Source: an uncultured Ignavibacteria bacterium (GTDB lineage Bacteria; Bacteroidota; Ignavibacteria; Ch128b). Taken from it: 33,188 nucleotides of DNA. Position numbers and translations under genes: made by a program. The DNA is taken from assembly GCA_937944105.1 (NCBI GenBank), contig CALDZP010000004.1, positions 1-33,188 of the forward strand, read 5' to 3'. The notes beneath the pieces were generated by a model. It had not been told where the DNA came from and searched no databases. It saw nothing but the letters and a program-made list of their open reading frames with translations. Below are positions 1 to 32,727 of this stretch, in pieces (position 1 is the first letter of the stretch; every line of letters begins with the position of its first letter).

Positions 1-10
1 TCCATTTAGC

Positions 11-124
11 AGTCATTGCGAGGAGTGAAACGACGAAGCAATCTTTCACAAAAAAAAACAATTTGAGAATTGGTCATTCAACCAGAAAAGATTGCTTCCC
101 CGCCTTTGGCGGATCGCAATGACT
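11..124. repeat. Hairpin repeat unit L1 (about 114 bp, inverted-repeat ends)
   Basis: The unit begins with agtcattgcga and ends with its exact reverse complement, tcgcaatgact. A second nested pair is gaagcaatctt against aagattgcttc, so the whole unit can fold into one long stem around an AT-rich centre. A 12-base linker (gtttcatttagc) separates it from the next unit, and the tail of the same linker is visible at bases 1-10, so the array probably continues to the left. No ORF lies inside. It looks like a non-coding MITE-like or REP-like element. Confidence 0.85.
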
Positions 125-136
125 GTTTCATTTAGC

Positions 137-251
137 AGTCATTGCGAGGAGTGAAACGACGAAGCAATCTCTCACAATAGAACAAAATGAAAATTGGTAA
201 TTCAACCAGAAAGGATTGCTTTTCCGATTTTCATCCTAACTCGCAATAACT
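137..251. repeat. Hairpin repeat unit L2 (degenerate second copy)
   Basis: This is a direct repeat of the preceding unit with a period of 126 bases. The left half (agtcattgcgaggagtgaaa) is identical, while the right arm has decayed to tcgcaataact. Its interior shares ttcaacca and cgattttcatc with the repeats near the right end of the window, so all belong to one family. Confidence 0.8.
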
Positions 252-549
252 ATTCCTTGAATTAATCATTCTGATAAATCGTAAGCTGAAACAAAACCAT
301 GTTTTTCGTTTTTCATATAAAGACGAAAAAAATCGCTACAGTTAAATAGACAAAATTAGTTTTTAGATATTTCGAAAATATTGATTTTAAAGTGTGTTTT
401 GCTTTGTATTGATTTATTCTTATTTAAAATGAGTCCTCGCTGATATAGTCAAAGTTGAGAAAAAATGTTTCATAAGCAAATCTTATTAAAATAAGACATC
501 ATTCAAACAAATTAAATAGTTCATCCATTCGAATAAAAATTAAACAAGC
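252..549. other. AT-rich intergenic stretch downstream of malQ
   Basis: No ORF with coding character was seen. The only structure noticed is a short tcttat/ataaga palindrome around 481-496, too weak to call a terminator. The stretch separates the 3' end of malQ from the repeat units. Confidence 0.6.
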
Positions 550-2046
550 TCATCTTTCAAAAATCTCAACAAAGCTTTTCATTTCATCGATTAGTTTATC
601 AGTAATTTGTTCCCACTTAAATCGCCATGACCAGTTGCCATCTGGTTTACCTGGAAAGTTCATTCGAGCTTCAGAACCAAGTCTTAAAAAATCTTGCAAG
701 GGAATAATCACAATATCAGCAACAGAAGAATAAGCAAGACGAATTAAATCTTTGCATACATCGTTACCATCTGATCCAGTATATTTCATAAAAAATTCTT
801 TTGTATCAGTTCCGTCATTTTGAATTGATTGCCACCAACCAAGAGTTGTATCATTATCGTGAGAGCCCGTATAAACTACACAATTTTTAACATATCGATG
901 AGGTAGAAATTTTTTTTCACCATTTGTGCCAAAAGCAAATTGAAGAATTTTCATTCCTGGAAAATTAAACTTATCCCTTAATTCGTATACCTCAGGAACT
1001 AAGATCCCCAGGTCCTCGGCGATAATTGGAAGTTTACCAAAATACTTTTCCAGAGTTGAGAAAAATTTTTCGCCAGGACCTAAAACCCATTCACCAGTTT
1101 CAGCAGTTGGTGCATCACCCGGAATTTTCCAATAATTATAAAAACCACGAAAATGATCAATTCTAATTATATCAGTCATCTTAAGTAAAGATGAAATTCT
1201 ATCACGCCACCATTTATAATCATCTTTTTCCATTAAATTCCATCTGTAATGTGGATTTCCCCATCTCTGTCCAGTAGGTGAGAAATAATCTGGAGGAACA
1301 CCAGCAATGAAAAGCGGTTTACCATCGGGACTTACTTCGAAAAGATCACGATTTACCCAAACATCAGCAGAATCAAAAGCAACAAAAATTGGTAAATCTC
1401 CAATGATTTTAATTCCTTTTGAATTAGCATAAGATTTTAATCCAATCCATTGCTGAAAGAAAAGGAATTGAATAAACTTATGAAATTTAATTTCTTCATT
1501 CAGTCTATTTCTGAAATAGTTAACAGCTTCTGATTTTCTTTGAGATATTTCAGAATCCCATTCATTCCATGGTTTACCTTCAAAGTATTCTTTGATGGCA
1601 ATAAAAAGAGCAAATTCATCAAGCCAATCTTTTTCTTTTTCACAAAATTCTTCGAAAGATTTTTTGATTTTTATATTATCTTTTTTTTCAAATCGTTCAT
1701 AAATTTTTTCCAGAGTTTCATATTTATATTCAATTACATTTCCATAATCAACTTTATCTTCTGGCAGATTGGGTATATTCTTTAAAATTTCTTTATCTGC
1801 AATTCCATCATCCACGAGTTTTTGAAAACTGATTAAAAGTGGATTACCAGCAAAAGCAGAAAGACATTGGTAAGGTGAATCACCAAAACTTGTTGGTCCA
1901 AGTGGAAGTATTTGCCAGAGCTTTTGTTTGGTTTCAGCAAGAAAATCTATAAACTTATAAGCATCAGGTCCTAAATCACCAATTCCAAATTTGGATGGCA
2001 ACGATGTTGGATGCAATAAAATACCGGCTGATCTTTCAAATTGCAT
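550..2046 (-). CDS. malQ: 4-alpha-glucanotransferase (amylomaltase, GH77)
   Basis: The protein is a cytoplasmic disproportionating enzyme that moves alpha-1,4-glucan segments between maltooligosaccharides and releases glucose, in maltodextrin or glycogen turnover. The 498-residue length fits compact bacterial MalQ. The N-terminus carries the family signature RSAGILLHPTSLP and a DSPYQ loop. Catalytic residues are visible: the nucleophile Asp297 in IRIDHFRGF, the acid/base Glu344 in IIAEDLG, and the stabilising Asp397 in TGSHDND. An ATG five codons upstream (2061) is in frame but has no ribosome binding site. The ATG used here has GAGG five bases upstream, and the resulting N-terminus matches the usual family start. 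The gene stands alone. The ROK sugar kinase about 20 kb away could phosphorylate the released glucose, but that link is inference. Confidence 0.95.
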   Translation of the reverse strand: MQFERSAGILLHPTSLPSKFGIGDLGPDAYKFIDFLAETKQKLWQILPLGPTSFGDSPYQCLSAFAGNPLLISFQKLVDDGIADKEILKNIPNLPEDKVDYGNVIEYKYETLEKIYERFEKKDNIKIKKSFEEFCEKEKDWLDEFALFIAIKEYFEGKPWNEWDSEISQRKSEAVNYFRNRLNEEIKFHKFIQFLFFQQWIGLKSYANSKGIKIIGDLPIFVAFDSADVWVNRDLFEVSPDGKPLFIAGVPPDYFSPTGQRWGNPHYRWNLMEKDDYKWWRDRISSLLKMTDIIRIDHFRGFYNYWKIPGDAPTAETGEWVLGPGEKFFSTLEKYFGKLPIIAEDLGILVPEVYELRDKFNFPGMKILQFAFGTNGEKKFLPHRYVKNCVVYTGSHDNDTTLGWWQSIQNDGTDTKEFFMKYTGSDGNDVCKDLIRLAYSSVADIVIIPLQDFLRLGSEARMNFPGKPDGNWSWRFKWEQITDKLIDEMKSFVEIFER

Positions 2047-4022: not shown

Positions 4023-6068
4023 ATGAAGTTCAATAAAAATATTATACTACAGATTCTTTTAATATTATTTGTTTCTACATTGAGCTACTCTCAGGTAGAT
4101 ACAATCATCACACCTTACAATGTTGTAAAAATTAAATCAATTGGAGAGGTGGCTTTATCACCAAATGGTAAATTGATTGCTTACACAGTAATTGTTCCAA
4201 GAGAAGTTAATGATGAACCAGGCTTTGCATATCGTGAGCTTTATCTGATGAATAATGATGGTAGTAATAAAAGATCTTTTATAACTGGAAAGGTAAGTAT
4301 AGGGAATATTACATTTTCACCAGATGGAAAATTTATTGCATTTACTGGCAGGTTTGAGAATGATAAATCAACTCAAGTTTATGTAATTCCTATCGATGGT
4401 GGAGAAAAATTTAAATTATTTGAAACCCCTGAGAGTGTAATTCAATTCAAATATTCACCCGATGGAAAGACAATTTATTTTACTTCACAGGAAGCTGTAC
4501 CTGATAAAATTAAAAAATTAAGAAATAAAGGCTTCAATCAAATCATTTACGAAGAAGACTGGCAACATATAAATCTTTACAAATATGATCTTGAAAAGAA
4601 AAAAATTGAACAACTAACAAGAGATTGTACGGTATTTGAGTTCGTTGTTTCAAATTCTGGTAAATATATAGCTGCAGCAATTGCACCAAGAAATCTTGTT
4701 GATGATTCCTACATGTTTAAAAGGCTTCATCTAATTGATTTATCTAATAATCAAAAAGAACTTTTAATTGATAATCCTGGTAAACTCGGAAATTTTGAGT
4801 TTAGTCCAGATGATAAATATTTAGTCTTCAATTCTGCTGTCGATATAAATGATCCAGCCTCAAGTAGTATGTATGTGGTTGAAGTACCGAATAAAGAAAA
4901 AAAATTTTCTGAACTTCGAAATTATTCTGAAAAATTTGAGGGAACAGTTAATTGGGTTGGATGGAAAGATAATCAAACTTTACTTTTCACAGCAGAAGAG
5001 GGTGTATATATTCCCCTAAGTGAACAGGGTTTGAATTCTCCAAATCGTAAATTAATTACTCCTGCAAACACAGTTGTTAGAAAAGTAATTTATGATCAAG
5101 TATCAAAAAAATATTATCTGGTAATTAGTAAGTTCAATCATCCTAATGAGATTTATTCTTTTGATGTAAAAGGAGGATTCAAGAGACTTACAAATGTTAA
5201 TCCGTGGCTTGAAAATGTAAGATTTGCAAGACAGGAAGAAGTAAGATACTTTGCTCGAGATGGATTAGAAATTACAGCTGTTTTAATTTATCCATTGAAT
5301 TACGAGCCAGGTAAAAGATACCCATTAATTGTAAATGTGCACGGTGGACCGGAAGCAGCTGATCAGAATGGTTGGGTAACTTCATATGGCAACTGGGGAC
5401 AAATGGCAGCGGCTCGAGGTTATTTTGTGTTTATGCCAAATTATAGAGCTAGTAACGGTCGAGGTGTTGAATTTTCAAAAATGGGCCAAAAAGATCTTGG
5501 TGGAAAAGAGTTTGACGATGTTATTGATGGAATTGATTATTTAATTGATCGAGGTTTTGTAGATAAGGATCGTGTTGGTATTGGCGGTGGAAGTTATGGT
5601 GGTTATTTCTCTGCATGGGCCGCAACTAAATACTCCGATCGATTTGCTGGGGCGGTGATGTTTGTTGGGATTTCAAATCAAATCTCAAAAAGAGGAACAA
5701 CTGACATTCCATACGAAGATTATTATGTTCACTGGAGAATCTGGTCGTGGGAAGATTTTGATTTAGTTTGGGATAGAAGTCCACTCAAGTACGCAACAAA
5801 TTGTAAAACACCAATATTGATTCTGCACGGCAAAGATGATCCTCGTGTAAGTGTAACTCAGTCAATGGAAATGTATCGGGCATTGAAAATTTTGAATCAA
5901 GCACCTGTAAGACTGGTTTTGTACCCCGGTGAAGGACATGGAAATGCAAGAACTCAATCTCGATTAGACTTTGCAATTAGAACATTAGAATGGTTTGATT
6001 TTTATGTGAAAGATAAAAATCCTTTTGACAAAATTCCGGATAAGTATGTTGACTATAAAATTGAATAA
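4023..6068 (+). CDS. Secreted prolyl oligopeptidase family (S9C-type) peptidase
   Basis: The 681-residue serine peptidase has a signal peptide (residues 1 to about 23, ending LSYSQ). A beta-propeller of WD40/TolB-like blades with repeated FSPDGK motifs fills roughly residues 30-400. The C-terminal alpha/beta hydrolase domain carries the triad Ser524 (GGGSYGGY), Asp606 (HGKDDPRV) and His639 (GEGHGNAR). It lacks the DWVYEEE motif of dipeptidyl peptidase IV, so it fits the acylaminoacyl-peptidase/DPP5-like branch, which removes blocked residues or dipeptides from the N-termini of short peptides. GAGG lies just upstream of the ATG. It ends the DUF1684 and MetX-like operon. The exact specificity cannot be read from the sequence. 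Confidence 0.93.
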   Translation: MKFNKNIILQILLILFVSTLSYSQVDTIITPYNVVKIKSIGEVALSPNGKLIAYTVIVPREVNDEPGFAYRELYLMNNDGSNKRSFITGKVSIGNITFSPDGKFIAFTGRFENDKSTQVYVIPIDGGEKFKLFETPESVIQFKYSPDGKTIYFTSQEAVPDKIKKLRNKGFNQIIYEEDWQHINLYKYDLEKKKIEQLTRDCTVFEFVVSNSGKYIAAAIAPRNLVDDSYMFKRLHLIDLSNNQKELLIDNPGKLGNFEFSPDDKYLVFNSAVDINDPASSSMYVVEVPNKEKKFSELRNYSEKFEGTVNWVGWKDNQTLLFTAEEGVYIPLSEQGLNSPNRKLITPANTVVRKVIYDQVSKKYYLVISKFNHPNEIYSFDVKGGFKRLTNVNPWLENVRFARQEEVRYFARDGLEITAVLIYPLNYEPGKRYPLIVNVHGGPEAADQNGWVTSYGNWGQMAAARGYFVFMPNYRASNGRGVEFSKMGQKDLGGKEFDDVIDGIDYLIDRGFVDKDRVGIGGGSYGGYFSAWAATKYSDRFAGAVMFVGISNQISKRGTTDIPYEDYYVHWRIWSWEDFDLVWDRSPLKYATNCKTPILILHGKDDPRVSVTQSMEMYRALKILNQAPVRLVLYPGEGHGNARTQSRLDFAIRTLEWFDFYVKDKNPFDKIPDKYVDYKIE

Positions 6069-6186: not shown

Positions 6187-8766
6187 TTAATTTAAACCTG
6201 CTGAATGAATTGCGTTAAACAGAAACTTGAAAGTTCCAAAAGTTTGATGTCGATTCTGAACCTTAACTCCAAGTAACACCACATTCCCCTTCTTCTGTTT
6301 TATATTTACAATCGCTGCACGATTATAAAGATAATCTTCACCTAAAAGGAATCCTGATTTTAATAAATCCTTTGTCGGGAATCTTGCTACAATACTTCTA
6401 TCGTATTGACCAAATGGTATTGTAGTTGCAAAAGCAATGTTGTTATTCATATAAGCAATAGCTTCTTCTTCAAAACCATATCCAATAGGATTATTATTAT
6501 CAACTGAAATTCTAATCAAAGAACCCGGGCAGAAAAATTCATCGCTCTTAACATTTTTTAAGATATTCGTTACACGAAGTCCTAAATCTTCAATAGCAAA
6601 GTTACACGCTTCACCTAAAGTTATTACAGTACCACCGTCTTTTTCAATAAATGTTTTAAGATTTTCGACTCCAGTTTTACCAATTCCACTATCATATTCT
6701 GGTGGTTTAGGTCGATTAAACCTCGCATTTTCACCAGTAAATTTACCCTCTTTAATCAAATCAGCGCTCATATCAGGAATTATAATTACATCATACCGGT
6801 CTTTTAATCGTTTAGTTTTAAATTCTTTATTATCCATCGTGACAAAATCAAATTCAAAATTTTCAAGAAGCAATCTTGTCCATCCTTCATCCATGTTCGC
6901 AGTGTAAGGTTTGTAAAGCCCTATTCTAACTTTTTTGATTTGTTTTAATATTTTTTGATCGATATGTTCTAATGAATTTATTTCGATGTGTAGTTCATCA
7001 GCTAAATTATCAACAACCTTTAGCGTTTGTGAATTTACTGGAAATATTACAGAACCTTGATTAAAAATTTTGTCATTCAATAAAATCTTTTCTGTATTCC
7101 AATAAACAGGAATGTTTAGTTTATGAAGTCGATTAATCAATTTACTGTTTATATTCATTCCCGATTTAACAATAAAATATTTTCCCGATTTTGATGAAAC
7201 TTTACCTTCACTATAATTTGGACCATTTAAATAATCAACTTCAATTTCAAATGGTTTATTAATCGTAAAAAATTTAACTCCCATTAAATAAGGTAAAGTC
7301 CAGCCAGCAACATCGTAAGGTTGGATGGGAGGTTCTTTTTTAGATTTTCTCAAATCAGGATAGTATTGCTCTTCAAATAAATCTTTCACATATCTTCCAT
7401 ACGGTTGAGCTAAGAAAATCACATAACTATTGGCAGGATAAATTACATTATCAACCTTAAAATCTTCTTTTGAAAAATGAACTTCCACTCCACCCAATTG
7501 CAATATTTCAATCATTTTGGAGACAGTAACAGGATCATTTTGTTCTCGTGGAATAACATAAGCAAATGGATTTCCTAATTTACCTTTTTCAACGGCATCT
7601 TTTCCCATCAGATAATAATCGAATAAAATATCTTCTTTATATTGAGATGCAATATCTATTAAACTGAATGTTAAAGCCAATTCATAATTTACAATATCTC
7701 TCAAACGCCACCATCCTCCTCGCCATGGATTTGGATAATTTGTTCGAATATCATATGGAGTAATTTCTGGAGTAGCTTTTATTTCTGATGGGTCAATATA
7801 AACAGGACTTGCAATATTACAACTTGCCACTTCTGAAAGTAAAGCAATCTGATTATGCCATAATCCACAATCACTCGCAGGACCCTGCCACCAACCTTCA
7901 AAAATAGCCTGATCAATTATTCCGTTATAACCTTGCTTTTCAAGCTCAAGAGCTGTGATTCCACCTATAACTTTTTGCCATCGCCAGATATACGGATGTA
8001 CATTTGGATTTAATGGATCTTTGTATGGAACCAAAAAAAGTCTTGCCCCACTACTCCCCATTTGATGTTCATCAAGCCATATTTGTGGTATCCACTTACG
8101 ATATGCAATTTCTATTACATTTCTTGTTTCAGGTAAATTGAACATAAACCAATCACGATTATTGTCATGACCTGCATAAACATGATAAAGCCAGGGCATT
8201 GGACTTGATTCATATTCAGTTCCTAAATATTTGTTATACCAGTTGACAATCATTGTTGTACCATCTGGATTAATTGATGGCATGATTATAAATATCACAT
8301 CATTTAGTGCTTTGTTAGTTTTTTCTGGTGCTGTTTTTGTTATCAATTTATAAGCTAATTCCATTGACATTTGTGAAGAAGCAATTTCAGTTGAGTGAAT
8401 ATTACATGTGACAAGTACAACAATTTTTCCTTCTCTTGAAAGTTGCCTTGCAATCTCATCGTTCAATTTTCTTGGATCAGATAACTGTATCGATATTTGT
8501 CGATACTTTTCCAGATTTCTAATGTTTTCCTCAGAACTGATGATTGCCATGAACATATCTCGCTGTTGCACTGTTTTACCAATCTCTTCATAAATAAGCA
8601 TTTTTGAGTTGGCAGCAAGATGTTTGAAATAATTCTGGATTGTCTCATAGTCTGCAATTTTATAGTCAGCACCGACAGGGAAACCTAAAAATTCTTCGGG
8701 TGATTTAAGTTGAGCAAAAGAAACCTGAAAAATTAAAAGACAAAAAAGAAATGAAAATTTTTTCAT
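6187..8766 (-). CDS. Secreted M14 zinc carboxypeptidase family protein
   Basis: The 859-residue exported metallopeptidase has a signal peptide, MKKFSFLFCLLIFQVSFAQ. The catalytic domain (about residues 40-330) shows the M14 zinc set: His124 and Glu127 in NIHSTEIASS, and His234 in DEHQMG. Substrate-binding residues are NPDG near 166 and Asn203-Arg204 in DNNRDW, and Glu312 in LSEVA is the likely general base. The long C-terminal half is not classical carboxypeptidase. Residues 640-760 resemble the glutamine-amidotransferase-like fold often attached to this subfamily (RIGLYKPY...DVIIIPD), which may bind substrate. It removes residues from peptide ends outside the cytoplasm; specificity is unknown. 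The gene stands alone, convergent with the S9 peptidase. Confidence 0.9.
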   Translation of the reverse strand: MKKFSFLFCLLIFQVSFAQLKSPEEFLGFPVGADYKIADYETIQNYFKHLAANSKMLIYEEIGKTVQQRDMFMAIISSEENIRNLEKYRQISIQLSDPRKLNDEIARQLSREGKIVVLVTCNIHSTEIASSQMSMELAYKLITKTAPEKTNKALNDVIFIIMPSINPDGTTMIVNWYNKYLGTEYESSPMPWLYHVYAGHDNNRDWFMFNLPETRNVIEIAYRKWIPQIWLDEHQMGSSGARLFLVPYKDPLNPNVHPYIWRWQKVIGGITALELEKQGYNGIIDQAIFEGWWQGPASDCGLWHNQIALLSEVASCNIASPVYIDPSEIKATPEITPYDIRTNYPNPWRGGWWRLRDIVNYELALTFSLIDIASQYKEDILFDYYLMGKDAVEKGKLGNPFAYVIPREQNDPVTVSKMIEILQLGGVEVHFSKEDFKVDNVIYPANSYVIFLAQPYGRYVKDLFEEQYYPDLRKSKKEPPIQPYDVAGWTLPYLMGVKFFTINKPFEIEVDYLNGPNYSEGKVSSKSGKYFIVKSGMNINSKLINRLHKLNIPVYWNTEKILLNDKIFNQGSVIFPVNSQTLKVVDNLADELHIEINSLEHIDQKILKQIKKVRIGLYKPYTANMDEGWTRLLLENFEFDFVTMDNKEFKTKRLKDRYDVIIIPDMSADLIKEGKFTGENARFNRPKPPEYDSGIGKTGVENLKTFIEKDGGTVITLGEACNFAIEDLGLRVTNILKNVKSDEFFCPGSLIRISVDNNNPIGYGFEEEAIAYMNNNIAFATTIPFGQYDRSIVARFPTKDLLKSGFLLGEDYLYNRAAIVNIKQKKGNVVLLGVKVQNRHQTFGTFKFLFNAIHSAGLN

Positions 8767-26512: not shown

Positions 26513-28699
26513 ATGAAAAGAACTTTAATTTTCTTGTGCTTATTTATTTTTGTCTTTAATTCTTATTCCCAACCTGTAAATAAAAAATTTACACTTGAAG
26601 AAATCTGGAGTAGCTCAAAATTCTCTTCTCAGTCTTTAAGGCTGGTAAAATGGATTGACTCTGGTAATAAATTTACATTTTTAGAAATCGATCCTAAAAC
26701 CCGAACGACAAATATTATGCTTTACGATGTTAAATCTAAGAGCAAAAAACTCTTTCTCAGTTCCGATGAGCTAAAAATTGACAAAGAGTCTAAATTTACA
26801 ATAATGAATTATGAATTTTCTCCTGATCAAAATTACATTCTATTTACAGGTCTTTTACCTGCCCGTTCAATTAAAAGTGGTGGAAATATTTTTCTGTATA
26901 ATAGAAACACAAAAGAGTTTTACGAAATAGAAACTAATGGGAATGTAATGAATGTGAAATTCTCCCCTGATAGCAAAAAAATCGGTTATGTGAAAAATGA
27001 TAACATCTACATTTACGATATTTCAAGCCGAACAGAAAGACAATTAACATTTGATGGAAATGGAATCATAATTAACGGACATTTTGATTGGGTCTATGAG
27101 GAAGAATTTTCAATTATAGACGGATGGATATTTTCTAACGATGGAAAACAAATTGCGTTCTGGCAACTTGATCAAAGTCCTGTTCCAGAAATTGAAATTC
27201 AACAGTTTGATTCACTTTATTTTAATTCTATTAAGATGAGATATCCAAAAGCTGGTTCTCCTAATTCAATTGTCAAAATAGGTGTTATTAATCTTGATGA
27301 TGGAAAAATTAATTTCATGGATCTGGGAATCGAAACTGACATTTATATACCAAGAATTTATTTTACTAAAAGAGAAAATGAACTTGCATTGATAAGATTA
27401 AATCGTCTCCAAAACAAACTTGAACTTTTACTTGGAAATACTATAACAGGAGAAACTAAAGTAATCTACACAGACACAGATTCGTGCTGGGTTGATGTCG
27501 AGAATCTTGAGGTCCATTTCTTAAACGACAAAAAACATTTTCTAATCACTTCTGAAAAAGATGGATTTAAGCACATTTATTTATATGACTTTTCAGGAAA
27601 CTTAAAAAGGCAAATTACTCGTGGCAACTGGGAAATTGATAAACTCGTTGATGTTGATGAAAAGAATGAACTTATTTACTTCACAAGTGGATTAGGTAAT
27701 CCTCTTGTTCGTAATCTTTATAGAATTAAATTTAATGGTAAAGATTTAACTCGCATCACTAATTTTGATGGTACCAACTTCATTAATTTCTCACCAAATC
27801 TAAAAAACTTTATTGTAACAAATTCTTCAACCAGATCAGTACCAAAAATTTATTTAGCGGATGTTTCAGGTAAATTAAATGAATTACTAATTGATAATAA
27901 AAATTTAGAAACCACTCTTAGTGAATACCCTTTTTCTAAACCTGAGTTTTTGACATTTACAACAAGTGATGGCATGACTCTAAATGCAATGATGATTAAA
28001 CCCGTTGATTTTGACCCAGAAAAAAGGTATCCCGTACTTTTTTATAACTATTCTGGACCTGGCAGTCAAATCGTGCGTGATATCTGGGGAGGTGCGCAAT
28101 TTTTGTGGCATCAGATGCTTGCTCAAGATGGTTATATAATTTTTATGATTGATAACCGTGGAACTGGTGGAAGAGGAAAATCTTTCAAAAATATAGTTTA
28201 TAAAAATTTAGGTCATTGGGAAGTAAATGATTTAATTGAAGCTGTAAAATTTTTACAATCATTACCTTATGTGGATAAAGAAAGAATTGGAATATGGGGA
28301 TGGAGTTATGGTGGTTATATCTCTGCATTAACAATTTTAGAAGCAAATGAATTTTTCAAAACCGCTATTTCGGTAGCGCCAGTCACAAATTGGAAATTTT
28401 ATGATACGATTTATACTGAAAGATATATGTCAACGCCTGACTTAAATCCAGAAGGATATGAAAAAAGTGCAGTTACCAACAAAGCTGATAAGTTAAAAGG
28501 AAAACTTCTTTTAATTCATGGCACAGCTGATGATAATGTTCATTTTCAAAATACTGTGGTTTTAGTGGATGAATTAATAAAGGCTAATAAACAGTTTCAG
28601 GTGATGTTTTATCCCGGCAAAGATCATGGAATCAGTGGTGGTAAAACAAGACTTCAATTGTTTACATTAATAACTAATTTCATAAAAGAGAATCTTTAA
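26513..28699 (+). CDS. Secreted dipeptidyl peptidase IV-like S9B peptidase
   Basis: The 728-residue serine peptidase has a signal peptide (MKRTLIFLCLFIFVFNSYSQ). The beta-propeller (about residues 40-480) contains DWVYEEEFS, the double-Glu loop that binds the substrate N-terminus in DPP IV and defines S9B. The hydrolase domain has Ser598 in WGWSYGGY, Asp673 in HGTADDNVHF and His705 in KDHGISGG, all matching DPP IV. It should release X-Pro or X-Ala dipeptides from peptides in the periplasm or at the surface. GGAG lies upstream of the ATG. It is a separate paralogue of the S9C-type peptidase earlier in the window, not a recent duplicate, since the two share only the fold and triad motifs. Confidence 0.95.
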   Translation: MKRTLIFLCLFIFVFNSYSQPVNKKFTLEEIWSSSKFSSQSLRLVKWIDSGNKFTFLEIDPKTRTTNIMLYDVKSKSKKLFLSSDELKIDKESKFTIMNYEFSPDQNYILFTGLLPARSIKSGGNIFLYNRNTKEFYEIETNGNVMNVKFSPDSKKIGYVKNDNIYIYDISSRTERQLTFDGNGIIINGHFDWVYEEEFSIIDGWIFSNDGKQIAFWQLDQSPVPEIEIQQFDSLYFNSIKMRYPKAGSPNSIVKIGVINLDDGKINFMDLGIETDIYIPRIYFTKRENELALIRLNRLQNKLELLLGNTITGETKVIYTDTDSCWVDVENLEVHFLNDKKHFLITSEKDGFKHIYLYDFSGNLKRQITRGNWEIDKLVDVDEKNELIYFTSGLGNPLVRNLYRIKFNGKDLTRITNFDGTNFINFSPNLKNFIVTNSSTRSVPKIYLADVSGKLNELLIDNKNLETTLSEYPFSKPEFLTFTTSDGMTLNAMMIKPVDFDPEKRYPVLFYNYSGPGSQIVRDIWGGAQFLWHQMLAQDGYIIFMIDNRGTGGRGKSFKNIVYKNLGHWEVNDLIEAVKFLQSLPYVDKERIGIWGWSYGGYISALTILEANEFFKTAISVAPVTNWKFYDTIYTERYMSTPDLNPEGYEKSAVTNKADKLKGKLLLIHGTADDNVHFQNTVVLVDELIKANKQFQVMFYPGKDHGISGGKTRLQLFTLITNFIKENL

Positions 28700-28804: not shown

Positions 28805-29416
28805 ATGAAAAAATTAATTCTTATTGTTTCTTTCTTCTTATTTATTTCAAGTTCTTTTGCTCAATTAAATTATGGTTTTAAAGGTGGATTAAATTTTGCA
28901 ACTTTTGGTGGTTCTGATGCAAGAGAGGCCAAAAGCGTTACCAAATTTCAATTTGGTACTTATGTTAAATACTCACTTCCTGTTTTATTCGGCTTTCAGG
29001 CTGAAGCACTTTATTCAATGAAAGGTGCACAAGCTAAAACAACAGATGATGCTGGAAATAACTGGACAATTTCTTATAACTTAGATTATTTAGAGATTCC
29101 AGTATTAGTACAGCTTAGTATACCTCTGGCAGTACCGGTACCTGTTACTCCTTACATTGAGGTAGGTCCTTCTTTAGGAATAAATCTTTCCTCTAAGGCT
29201 AAACTTGAAACAGTAGGATTTTCACAAGAAAAGGATATCAAAAATGACATGACCAGTACGGATTTTGGACTCGCATTAGGTTTTGGACTGGACATTCTGA
29301 AAAAATTTGGTGTTAATTTGAGATATACTTTTGGATTTAATACTATTGATAATACAGCCAACCCCGACGACTTAAAAAATAGTTTAATAGCATTAACTCT
29401 TTACTATGGATTATAA
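28805..29416 (+). CDS. PorT-like outer-membrane beta-barrel protein
   Basis: The 203-residue protein has a signal peptide (ending SSSFAQ) and an eight-strand-type barrel of the outer membrane protein beta-barrel (PorT-like) family. Family features are GFKGGLNFATF after the signal, DYLEIPVLVQL in the middle, PYIEVGPSLG, then DFGLALGFGLD and LRYTFGFNTID near the end. Such proteins are abundant in Bacteroidota; most have no known function, and membership does not imply a type IX secretion role. GAGGG lies four bases before the ATG. A possible promoter is TTTG at 28713 with TATATTTT 22 bases later, a little too widely spaced. A strong terminator makes this a single-gene transcript. Confidence 0.87.
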   Translation: MKKLILIVSFFLFISSSFAQLNYGFKGGLNFATFGGSDAREAKSVTKFQFGTYVKYSLPVLFGFQAEALYSMKGAQAKTTDDAGNNWTISYNLDYLEIPVLVQLSIPLAVPVPVTPYIEVGPSLGINLSSKAKLETVGFSQEKDIKNDMTSTDFGLALGFGLDILKKFGVNLRYTFGFNTIDNTANPDDLKNSLIALTLYYGL

Positions 29417-29452: not shown

Positions 29453-29487
29453 AACCTGTCCTGATTATTTAGGACAGGTTTATTTTT
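29453..29487 (+). terminator. Rho-independent terminator of the PorT-like gene
   Basis: aacctgtcct at 29453-29462 pairs perfectly with aggacaggtt at 29471-29480 around an eight-base loop and runs into tattttttta. It begins about 37 bases after the stop codon. Confidence 0.92.
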
Positions 29488-29589
29488 TTAATTTCATAAA
29501 AGATATTAACAGATAATATTATAAATGGGACTCATTCATGAAAAAATATTTTCAATAAAAAATTTATACCATTAATGAGGTATTTATCA

Positions 29590-32500
29590 ATGATTAAAAT
29601 TATTTTCGGCTTGATTTTCTTAAGTCAAATTTTACACTCTCAAAGTTTCAATCAGGAAGTTAATTATAAAATTGATGCTGAATTACTTCCGGATTCAAAA
29701 ATATTAAAGGTAAATTCTTTAATTGATTACAAGAATAATTCACCAGATGAATTAAAAGAGATATTTCTCCACATTTATTGGAATATTTACAGTGCAAATA
29801 GTTATGCACGAAAATTAGCAGAACTACAAAAGGACTATTATTCACAGCAAACAACTGATGTGGTAATTAAAAAAGTCTTATTAAAACAAAACGAAAATAA
29901 TATTGAAAATACTTTTGAACTGGATAACACTGTAATGAGAATACCACTGATACAACCACTTAAAACTGGACAATCGCTAAAAATTGAAATTGAACTGGAA
30001 GAAGAAATTCCACCTGAAGGTTTAAGAATGGGATATCACAAACGGTATTTTTCGATTGCTCACTGGTTTCCATCTGTTTGTGTTTATGATAAATTTGGCT
30101 GGCACAAAGACCAATATCTTGGAACCGGGGAATTTTTTGAAGAAATTTCGAATTTTGAAATTAATCTCACTTTACCCGAAACATACCTTGTTTTTCATAC
30201 CGGAGATTTAATAAATCCTGAAGAGGTTTATAATGAATCAATTTTGAGAAATCTGGAAGTCGCAAAAAAATCTGACACAACAGTTAGAATTTTTACTCCA
30301 ACTTATAAGATTCAAATTAATGACGAAAAGAAGAAGACGTGGAAATTTAAAGCTAATAATGTTCGGACTTTTGCCTTTGCCTGTTTCGAAGATTATTTGT
30401 GGGATGCGTCAAATCAAGATGGAATTCTTGTTCACACAGTTTATCCCGAAATATTAGAAAATTTTTATAAAAACGAGGGGATGAAAGCAGCAAAACACGC
30501 AATCAAGTTCTTCTCTGAAAAAATCGGCCCTTACATTTACTCTCAGATGTTTGTAACTGTTGGTGGCTCGAGTGGAGGTATGGAATATCCCGGAATTGTT
30601 TTTATGGGTCGGGGTCAAATTGGTGGAATTTTATCTTATAACACTGCATCTGTCATCATTCACGAAATTGGTCACAACTGGTTTCCAATGATGTTGAATT
30701 CAAACGAAGTCGATTATGCATTTATGGACGAAGGTTTTAATACTTTTTTCACAACTCTTGCAACGGAAGAATTATATGGCAAAGAAAAAAATAGATTCAA
30801 ACTGGAAGGATTTCTTTCAAAATTGTTTAATAACTCAAATGTAAGAACTGGCGATTACAGTGAAGTAATTCAATACCTTCAATCCGGTTATACTGAACCT
30901 ATCATGACTCATTCTGATAGATATGAACAAACCTTAGCTTATGTTGTCAATTCTTATCCACGAACTTCAATGAATCTTTTTATGCTACAGTATATAATGG
31001 GAGAGAAAGCCTTTGATGAATTGTGGCAGGAATATTACAAAAGATTTTTGCTAAAGAAAATTTATCCAGAGGATTTTTTCAATCTTGCAGAAGAAATTTA
31101 TCAGAAACATAATGGTAGAAAATCTTTAAGGTGGTTTTTTGATCAATGGTTTTATAAAGATTATACTTTAGACTTAGTCATTAAAGAATTTAATGTGAAA
31201 GAAAAGGAAGGAAAATTTCAAACCACTATCAGTGTTTCAAATAACGGACGAGCTTTAATGCCTTGCGATGTCGAAATAGAATTTGACGATGGTAGTAAAG
31301 AATCAATTTTTTTTGATGTAGAAGAATTTTCAAAAGGTGTTCAAGTTGCAACCAAAACTTTAACATTTAATAAAAAACCTGTGCAAGCAGAAATCAACCC
31401 AGATAAAAGATTACTTGATGTGAACCGTTTGAATAATACTTCAAAAATTTTACCACCAATTAAACTTGTTTCAAAACCAATCATTAATCTGGTAAACGAA
31501 CCATTTTACTATAACATTTTTTATTCTCCTTATTTATGGTTCAATAACTACGATGGGTTGAAATTCGGATTTAAATTCGAAGGAAAATATAATGTAGATC
31601 AAAGACAATTTGATCTCAGTTTATTCAAAGGATTAAGGAGAGGAATAAATTCATTTGGAGGAGATTTTAATATCAAGGACAAACTTAATTTTCTTGGACC
31701 GCTTGCATACGGTTCTTTCAGATTTTTTAACTATGAAGGTAGAAGAGGAATTCAATTAAAGATAAATAAAACTTTTGCGAGAAGTTCTGGTCGTAATCCA
31801 CAATTCTATGTTAGTTTTTCCGCAAATTATTTCGATGCATTTGATGATACATACTTTGATAAAAACAAATTTGACATCGGTAAGATAATGAATTTTACCA
31901 ATGGTTCTTACTTTCTAAAAAACATAGCCCAAAGAAAATTTCTGTATTCAATTAATCAATTTTCATATGTCAATAACTGGGAATTTTTTAAAACTAAATT
32001 TGATGTTTATTACGAAGCAGGAATAGTTAAAGAAAATGAAAACATTTTTTATAATACAAGTCAAAATTCTCATAGAATAAGTGTTTCAAATCAAAATGTA
32101 CTTTATCAGAAATTAAGTTTTTCTTTTGTTCAAGATTTTAAACCAAATATTTTATTAACTTCATTGAGATTTAGACAATTTGTGGGAGTAACTCCGAAAA
32201 AGCTTCCTAAAGCAAAGGAATTTTACATCGCCAGTGTAAATCCAGTCGATGAATTTAATCTTCTACTTTATAGAACTTATGGAATTTTTTCCAGAAATTT
32301 CATAAGTAGTCACTCCGTTCCCAATGGAGATGGTTTTATGAGAGGATATTTTAGAGATAATATATCAGATGATTTGATTACCACTTTTAATGGTGAGATT
32401 AATTTTGCAAGGACCTTTTCTTATTTCGGTGTACCTGGAAAAATTTTTTCTGTCTTAAATCCTAAATTTTTCTTTGACATTGGAAATGTCTGGGCAAACG

Positions 32501-32727
32501 AAAAGGAAATTAAATTAAAACCTCTTAAAGCTGATTGGGGTATTAGTCTTTCCTTAGTCCCCGAATTCGACGGACGAATAGCAACAGAACTTAATAAAAT
32601 TAACCCATTCAGTGATCTAGGGATCAATGACTTAAGAATTGATTTCCCGTTATTCGTAAGTCACCCACCTCAAGGTGAAAATAGATTTCAATTTAGATGG
32701 TTGCTTGGATTACGAACGGTTTTTTAA
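29590..32727 (+). CDS. M1 family metallopeptidase fused to an Omp85-like outer-membrane barrel
   Basis: The 1045-residue exported protein starts with a signal peptide (MIKIIFGLIFLSQILHSQS). Residues about 20-530 are an M1 gluzincin: the exopeptidase loop GGMEYP (329-334), zinc ligands in HEIGHNW (His358, His362) and Glu381 in FMDEGF, 18 residues on, as the family requires. A beta-sandwich follows to about 625, ending INPDKRLLDVNRLNN. From about 638 to the end, some 400 residues of alternating strands look like a barrel. They include MRGYFRDN (Arg918-Gly919-Tyr920) and FFDIGNVW, two Omp85-like signatures, and end in a terminal Phe. No POTRA repeat is evident. The ATG chosen has GAGG nine bases upstream; an ATG five codons earlier overlaps that site. 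Peptidase identity is firm; the Omp85 link is inference. Confidence 0.92.
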   Translation: MIKIIFGLIFLSQILHSQSFNQEVNYKIDAELLPDSKILKVNSLIDYKNNSPDELKEIFLHIYWNIYSANSYARKLAELQKDYYSQQTTDVVIKKVLLKQNENNIENTFELDNTVMRIPLIQPLKTGQSLKIEIELEEEIPPEGLRMGYHKRYFSIAHWFPSVCVYDKFGWHKDQYLGTGEFFEEISNFEINLTLPETYLVFHTGDLINPEEVYNESILRNLEVAKKSDTTVRIFTPTYKIQINDEKKKTWKFKANNVRTFAFACFEDYLWDASNQDGILVHTVYPEILENFYKNEGMKAAKHAIKFFSEKIGPYIYSQMFVTVGGSSGGMEYPGIVFMGRGQIGGILSYNTASVIIHEIGHNWFPMMLNSNEVDYAFMDEGFNTFFTTLATEELYGKEKNRFKLEGFLSKLFNNSNVRTGDYSEVIQYLQSGYTEPIMTHSDRYEQTLAYVVNSYPRTSMNLFMLQYIMGEKAFDELWQEYYKRFLLKKIYPEDFFNLAEEIYQKHNGRKSLRWFFDQWFYKDYTLDLVIKEFNVKEKEGKFQTTISVSNNGRALMPCDVEIEFDDGSKESIFFDVEEFSKGVQVATKTLTFNKKPVQAEINPDKRLLDVNRLNNTSKILPPIKLVSKPIINLVNEPFYYNIFYSPYLWFNNYDGLKFGFKFEGKYNVDQRQFDLSLFKGLRRGINSFGGDFNIKDKLNFLGPLAYGSFRFFNYEGRRGIQLKINKTFARSSGRNPQFYVSFSANYFDAFDDTYFDKNKFDIGKIMNFTNGSYFLKNIAQRKFLYSINQFSYVNNWEFFKTKFDVYYEAGIVKENENIFYNTSQNSHRISVSNQNVLYQKLSFSFVQDFKPNILLTSLRFRQFVGVTPKKLPKAKEFYIASVNPVDEFNLLLYRTYGIFSRNFISSHSVPNGDGFMRGYFRDNISDDLITTFNGEINFARTFSYFGVPGKIFSVLNPKFFFDIGNVWANEKEIKLKPLKADWGISLSLVPEFDGRIATELNKINPFSDLGINDLRIDFPLFVSHPPQGENRFQFRWLLGLRTVF

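Follow-up and report, generated by a model that had tools for sequence, protein, structure and literature searches.

The window analyzed here, a stretch of 33,188 nucleotides from an uncultured Ignavibacteria bacterium, carries near its end a single intact open reading frame (29575-32727, forward strand) for a predicted fusion of an M1 aminopeptidase unit with an Omp85-type barrel. Residues are counted from the start at 29575. The original prediction placed the start at 29590, an in-frame ATG five codons downstream that is preceded by GAGG, and its residue numbers are therefore five lower; that choice remains plausible, and the upstream start is equally so. The features discussed below are as follows.

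26513..28699, forward strand: DPP IV-like S9 peptidase, upstream neighbor (annotation, context only)
28805..29416, forward strand: small outer-membrane barrel (PF13568), upstream neighbor (annotation, context only)
29453..29480, forward strand: terminator-like hairpin with a T run, between the upstream barrel gene and the fusion gene (sequence scan)
29575..32727, forward strand: M1 aminopeptidase-Omp85-type barrel fusion P0001, 1050 aa (ORF calling, full-length homologues)
29575..29640, forward strand: putative Sec-type signal sequence, residues 1-22, followed by Gln23 (from the sequence itself)
29644..31440, forward strand: M1 aminopeptidase unit, residues 24-622, including a beta-sandwich at 534-607 (Pfam, module border, confident part of the model)
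30574..30591, forward strand: GGMEYP, residues 334-339, GxMEN-like site for the substrate N-terminus (homologue alignment, sequence)
30661..30675, forward strand: HEIGH, residues 363-367, zinc-binding and catalytic motif (homologue alignment, sequence)
30730..30732, forward strand: Glu386, third zinc ligand of HEXXH-x18-E (homologue alignment, sequence)
31447..32724, forward strand: predicted Omp85-superfamily barrel tail, residues 625-1050, with the first predicted strand near 645 (profile comparison, strand pattern, motifs)
32341..32349, forward strand: RGY, residues 923-925, within MRGY 922-925, loop-6 motif (profile alignment, motif tests; role in PMC7644211)
32470..32493, forward strand: FFDIGNVW, residues 966-973, strand-13 F-x-D-x-G motif with Asp968 (profile alignment, motif tests; PMC7644211)
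32635..32724, forward strand: last two predicted strands, RIDFPLF ... FRWLLGLRTVF, ending in Phe (sequence, homologues, low-confidence model)

On inspection, the signal sequence is hydrophobic and has no lipobox Cys; the C-terminal residue of the protein is Phe. The DPP IV-like gene adjoins the fusion gene in one congener and not in the other. We considered an operon with this gene and rejected it as weak, because the neighbor is kept in that congener only and the terminator-like hairpin intervenes, although such hairpins occur across the region in a number near chance. LptD is encoded 8 kb from the fusion gene in the window and in one congener, a proximity that is not specific. The window also encodes an S9 peptidase (4023-6068) and an M14 carboxypeptidase (6187-8766) besides the DPP IV-like peptidase (26513-28699), which suggests a peptide-degrading lifestyle. 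The presence of a glutaminyl cyclase, sought through PF04389, was uninformative since that family occurs everywhere.

The M1 unit and its border

Peptidase_M1 (PF01433) is the sole Pfam family matched by the whole fusion protein, at residues 304-525 (E=5e-16, 59.4 bits against a curated cut-off of 27.7). The complete M1 active site that had been read from the window is present, with GGMEYP, HEIGH and Glu386 all in place; furthermore, the HEXXH-x18-Glu zinc site, GGMEYP and Tyr461 are conserved in 19 homologues. By these intact residues the protein would be an active zinc aminopeptidase. A full-length structure prediction based on 17 sequences is confident across most of residues 25-622, and the best PDB matches of the modeled unit are IRAP and ERAP1, which are eukaryotic, and PepN; together these results place the end of the M1 unit near residue 622.

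A comparison of 89 M1 units, taken from this genome and from related ones, gives a sharp module border at residue 622. Tail-less units with a closed frame mostly end no more than about 22 residues from the border, two of them extending 43 and 132 residues, whereas tailed units run 350-450 residues past it. The tail-less M1 metallopeptidases (about 640-700 aa) have the same M1 unit, including the C-terminal beta-sandwich seen here at 534-607, and terminate where the barrel of the fusion starts. One such paralogue, 33% identical, is encoded on contig C78 of the same genome.

The segment directly before the barrel is part of the M1 unit and not a POTRA domain. The original prediction had noted no obvious POTRA, and indeed none was detected in 19 full-length members at E up to 10. 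Membership of the Omp85 superfamily is associated with at least one POTRA, and the fusion has none; POTRA domains are stated for most Omp85 members, the WD40, Metallo and noNterm groups being described without them.

Kinship of the tail to Omp85 barrels

Searched as a single sequence against Pfam, the window tail matched no barrel family, PF01103 included, and a profile search of the PDB with the tail returned no outer-membrane protein, its top match being a chance one to Cdc13. Two homologues (L010 and L011) exceed the PF01103 gathering cut-off and two further ones reach E=0.002. The proposed check against PF01103 thus failed for the window tail alone and succeeded for its family. A tail profile built from 13 sequences was compared with Omp85 sets and with control barrel sets. 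It matches the BamA-type Omp85 barrels of related genomes at 95.3% (E=2.4e-8, with 61 columns matched locally) and the WD40-type Omp85 barrels at 97.5% (E=5e-12, 285 columns), the latter value rising to 98.0% with the addition of lone barrels; as these E-values are pairwise, their absolute size weighs less than the contrast to the controls, namely TonB receptors (2.0%), FadL (0.7%) and the reversed profile (1.7%). Plain HMM searches between tail and Omp85 agree in both directions. In the WD40-type alignment, RGY stands opposite RGY and FFDIGNVW opposite FVDAGSAW. That the tail family is an Omp85-superfamily barrel is well supported by these sequence profiles, and the Omp85-like character first proposed from one protein holds at the family level (95-98% for Omp85, at most 2% for controls, reciprocal HMM matches).

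The motifs of Omp85 proteins are (V/I)RG(Y/F) in loop 6 and (F/G)xDxG in strand 13, and the salt bridge between their Arg and Asp occurs in all Omp85 structures (PMC7644211). The window tail carries MRGY at 922-925 and then FFDIG at 966-970. Correctly ordered and spaced RG[YFW] and F-x-D-x-G are present in 12 of the 13 near tails and in 15 of the 18 lone barrels, as against 0.6% of shuffled tails, and the pattern of the tail is therefore beyond chance. The order and spacing first noticed, RGY with FFDIGNVW some 45 residues on, are thus present and rare in shuffles.

Loop-6 Arg-Gly-Tyr and the strand-13 Asp are regarded as essential in Omp85 proteins. RG[YFW] occurs in none of 21 distant fused tails, and the strand-13 Asp is missing from most of them. 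M1 fusions whose barrel-like tail has no loop-6 Arg-Gly-Tyr, and in most cases no strand-13 Asp either, were observed at L169-L176, L179-L180, L187-L191 and L193. Raw counts for the loop-6 Arg and strand-13 Asp are 32 with both, 18 with neither and 8 discordant; we discarded their covariation as evidence, as the tree offers only three independent contrasts, and give the counts as description only.

An alternating strand pattern had been seen over about 400 residues, and a strand-alternation score agrees with it: the tail lies 5 sd above a local shuffle and the M1 unit 0.4 sd. BamA-type barrels score 3.8 sd and FadL barrels -0.4, and we take the score as supportive because FadL, a true barrel, fails the same test. 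By eye, the tail would have 11 strands before RGY and five after it, which corresponds to the Omp85 layout; the low-confidence full-length model likewise has about five strands after RGY. Of the two structure predictions, that of the tail alone, made from an alignment of two tail sequences that is too shallow, reached a pLDDT of 27, and the full-length model from 17 sequences resolved the M1 unit only, with pLDDT below 50 over most of the tail. Omp85 barrels are closed, with 16 strands and loop 6 in the lumen; the strand pattern agrees with such a layout, and from it we infer that the tail may form a closed 16-strand barrel.

One may also hypothesize that the tail is an outer-membrane barrel of a different type, or consists of beta-sandwich domains in series, with motifs that arose by chance. 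The empty single-sequence and PDB searches with the window tail would agree with this, as would the distant fused tails devoid of the hallmark motifs. However, the profile match is specific to two Omp85 sets, with none to the TonB or FadL sets, and two members pass the Pfam cut-off; we regard a tail outside Omp85 as very improbable.

Distribution and relatives of the fusion

The fusion is old and widespread in the phylum. The tail is present on 43 of the 81 M1 units placed on a tree, and tailed M1 proteins span at least 19 of the phylum's family codes and also occur in a Candidatus Kapabacteria genome (L036). Gain and loss of the tail on this tree take 2-3 changes versus about 27 in shuffles, which indicates an old fusion largely inherited as such. 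The suspicion that the architecture goes unremarked among M1 peptidases was justified, since Pfam and NCBIfam name the M1 part only. Tail homologues in other genomes are free of stops; homologues were found in 158 of 395 genomes, a figure that also covers lone barrels and other Omp85 proteins and does not give the number of fusions. No relatives of the fusion were found in the viral contigs searched, and the plasmids searched yielded matches to the M1 unit only, none covering 80% of the query.

The same barrel family exists as lone barrels (L148-L165; 99.9% over 352 columns), 18 loci of 404-443 aa in other families of the phylum, most of them in one family. They bear no Pfam or NCBIfam name, and two of them (L148 and L151) are located between a NUDIX gene and an acetate kinase gene. 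Unlike the fusion, these barrels and the published noNterm Omp85 proteins, to which they may correspond, have no enzyme attached.

Tandem arrangements were also observed. At L015, a separate 445-aa frame (2-1336, forward strand) lies just upstream of a tailed M1 gene and matches the tail profile at E=6e-27; it is probably the end of a second, tandem fusion, with a neighboring M1 match in the same genome (G015). Chitinophagaceae also have tandem M1 genes (L054:6403-9198, L056:7632-10454 and L057:7445-10339); the C-terminal part of the second gene product, about 430-450 residues long, is of another kind, with no match to the tail profile or to Pfam.

A probable tethered peptidase and its place among enzyme-Omp85 proteins

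Omp85 barrels have both ends in the periplasm, and a domain at the N-terminus should therefore lie there too unless it is transported. In the case of PlpD, the type Vd prototype, the enzyme domain is reported to stay in the periplasm (PMC11116518), and the same logic would make the M1 unit periplasmic; the enzyme is probably periplasmic in both proteins. We thus favor, as the likely though by no means certain reading, an aminopeptidase located in the periplasm and tethered to the outer membrane through an Omp85-type barrel without POTRA, where it would trim peptides, probably for catabolism. The barrel would hold the M1 unit directly, through a linker of about 20 residues, and its presumed orientation would position the unit at the periplasmic face of the membrane. 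There, the tethered zinc enzyme may trim peptides present in the periplasm. Peptide catabolism is the simplest guess as to its role, by analogy with the periplasmic peptide breakdown by such enzymes described in Bacteroidetes (PMC10653852) and from the DPP IV-like neighbor, a neighborhood whose conservation is weak. Pyroglutamate capping is thought to protect exported proteins in the Bacteroidetes periplasm (PMC10653852), and the fusion bears on which enzymes attack free N-termini there.

The original prediction was of a type Vd-like, self-anchored peptidase that the barrel might also translocate and display. Self-anchoring survives; transfer of the M1 unit to the cell surface, or its release, we consider unlikely. 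The enzyme precedes the barrel as in PlpD, for which such display was once proposed, and a linker of 20 residues need not on its own prevent passage. In PlpD, however, the enzyme domain was detected in the periplasm alone (PMC11116518), a 16-strand barrel is unlikely to carry a folded unit of about 600 residues, and no cleavage site or partner was identified. A role in outer-membrane protein quality control, in which the tethered peptidase would trim or remove misassembled proteins near BAM, could be suggested by the kinship of the tail to Omp85 barrels and by BepA, a known periplasmic metallopeptidase acting at BAM (PMC8423444). M1 enzymes, however, act by trimming N-termini, unlike BepA, an endopeptidase of unfolded proteins; the fusion has no POTRA with which to dock on BAM; and no genetic link to bam genes was seen, LptD at 8 kb being unspecific. 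We find this role improbable, and judge in the same way the idea that the barrel is a port or sensor at whose mouth entering peptides are processed by the M1 unit. The window clade does retain both residues by which the lid is held inside Omp85 lumens, the Arg of loop 6 and the Asp of strand 13, and the same barrel also occurs as a protein of its own, but this Arg-Asp lid-lock is missing in many lineages, with many related fusions lacking both residues, and there is no evidence of a channel. The broader proposal of a further phylum-wide Omp85 subfamily, with a barrel that acts as port or sensor rather than as passive anchor and is coupled to an aminopeptidase so that peptides or proteins crossing or leaving would be processed at the periplasmic mouth, is likewise doubtful. 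Related fusions that keep or lack the Arg-Asp pair nevertheless constitute a natural test of the purpose of loop 6.

The fusion may be compared with several known systems. Leukotriene A4 hydrolase, ERAP1, IRAP and PepN share the M1 fold and active-site motifs of the fusion and, unlike it, have no outer-membrane barrel. The 2014 survey of Omp85 proteins by Heinz and Lithgow distinguishes ten subfamilies, including patatin, WD40, 'Metallo' (PF00149) and noNterm, and none with M1 (PMC4104836). We found no published description of an M1-Omp85 fusion in the literature on peptidases or enzymes combined with Omp85 or outer-membrane barrels, a scope outside which most subscription papers lie. With the fusion, a superfamily known above all for protein insertion and transport gains a peptidase-Omp85 architecture that is old and common within one phylum.

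By profile, the closest barrel is that of the WD40-Omp85 proteins (PMC4104836; here L181, L182, L192, L195 and L197), at 97.5-98.0% and with RGY and FxDxG aligned. Like the fusion they have no POTRA, and some carry a Peptidase_MA domain with HExxH; they differ in having an N-terminal PD40/WD40 propeller and this Peptidase_MA domain where the fusion has its M1 unit. The genome of the window encodes one such protein on contig C7 (L197:2042-4699, reverse strand) which, like its relatives L181, L182, L192 and L195, combines a Peptidase_MA-like HExxH domain, a PD40 propeller and an Omp85-type barrel. These probably belong to the published WD40-Omp85 group, whose description omits the peptidase motif.

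Patatin-Omp85 proteins (PlpD, 'type Vd') resemble the fusion in that a single polypeptide has an enzyme ahead of its Omp85 barrel. Their enzyme is a patatin lipase, with POTRA between it and the barrel, whereas the fusion has an M1 peptidase in place of the patatin-like enzyme and no POTRA in between. A PlpD-like protein of 914 aa, with the patatin motifs GGGARG and GTSFG followed by an Omp85 barrel, is encoded on contig C3 of the same genome (L198:2438-5179, reverse strand). With patatin-Omp85-like and Peptidase_MA-like/propeller/Omp85 proteins both encoded there, enzyme-Omp85 fusions appear to be a theme of this genome. Together, the fusion and PlpD support the view that Omp85 barrels have been put to new use as carriers of enzymes on the periplasmic side of the outer membrane. 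On the best reading, the M1 peptidase-Omp85 protein is a new variant of this enzyme-Omp85 theme, absent from the ten published subfamilies.
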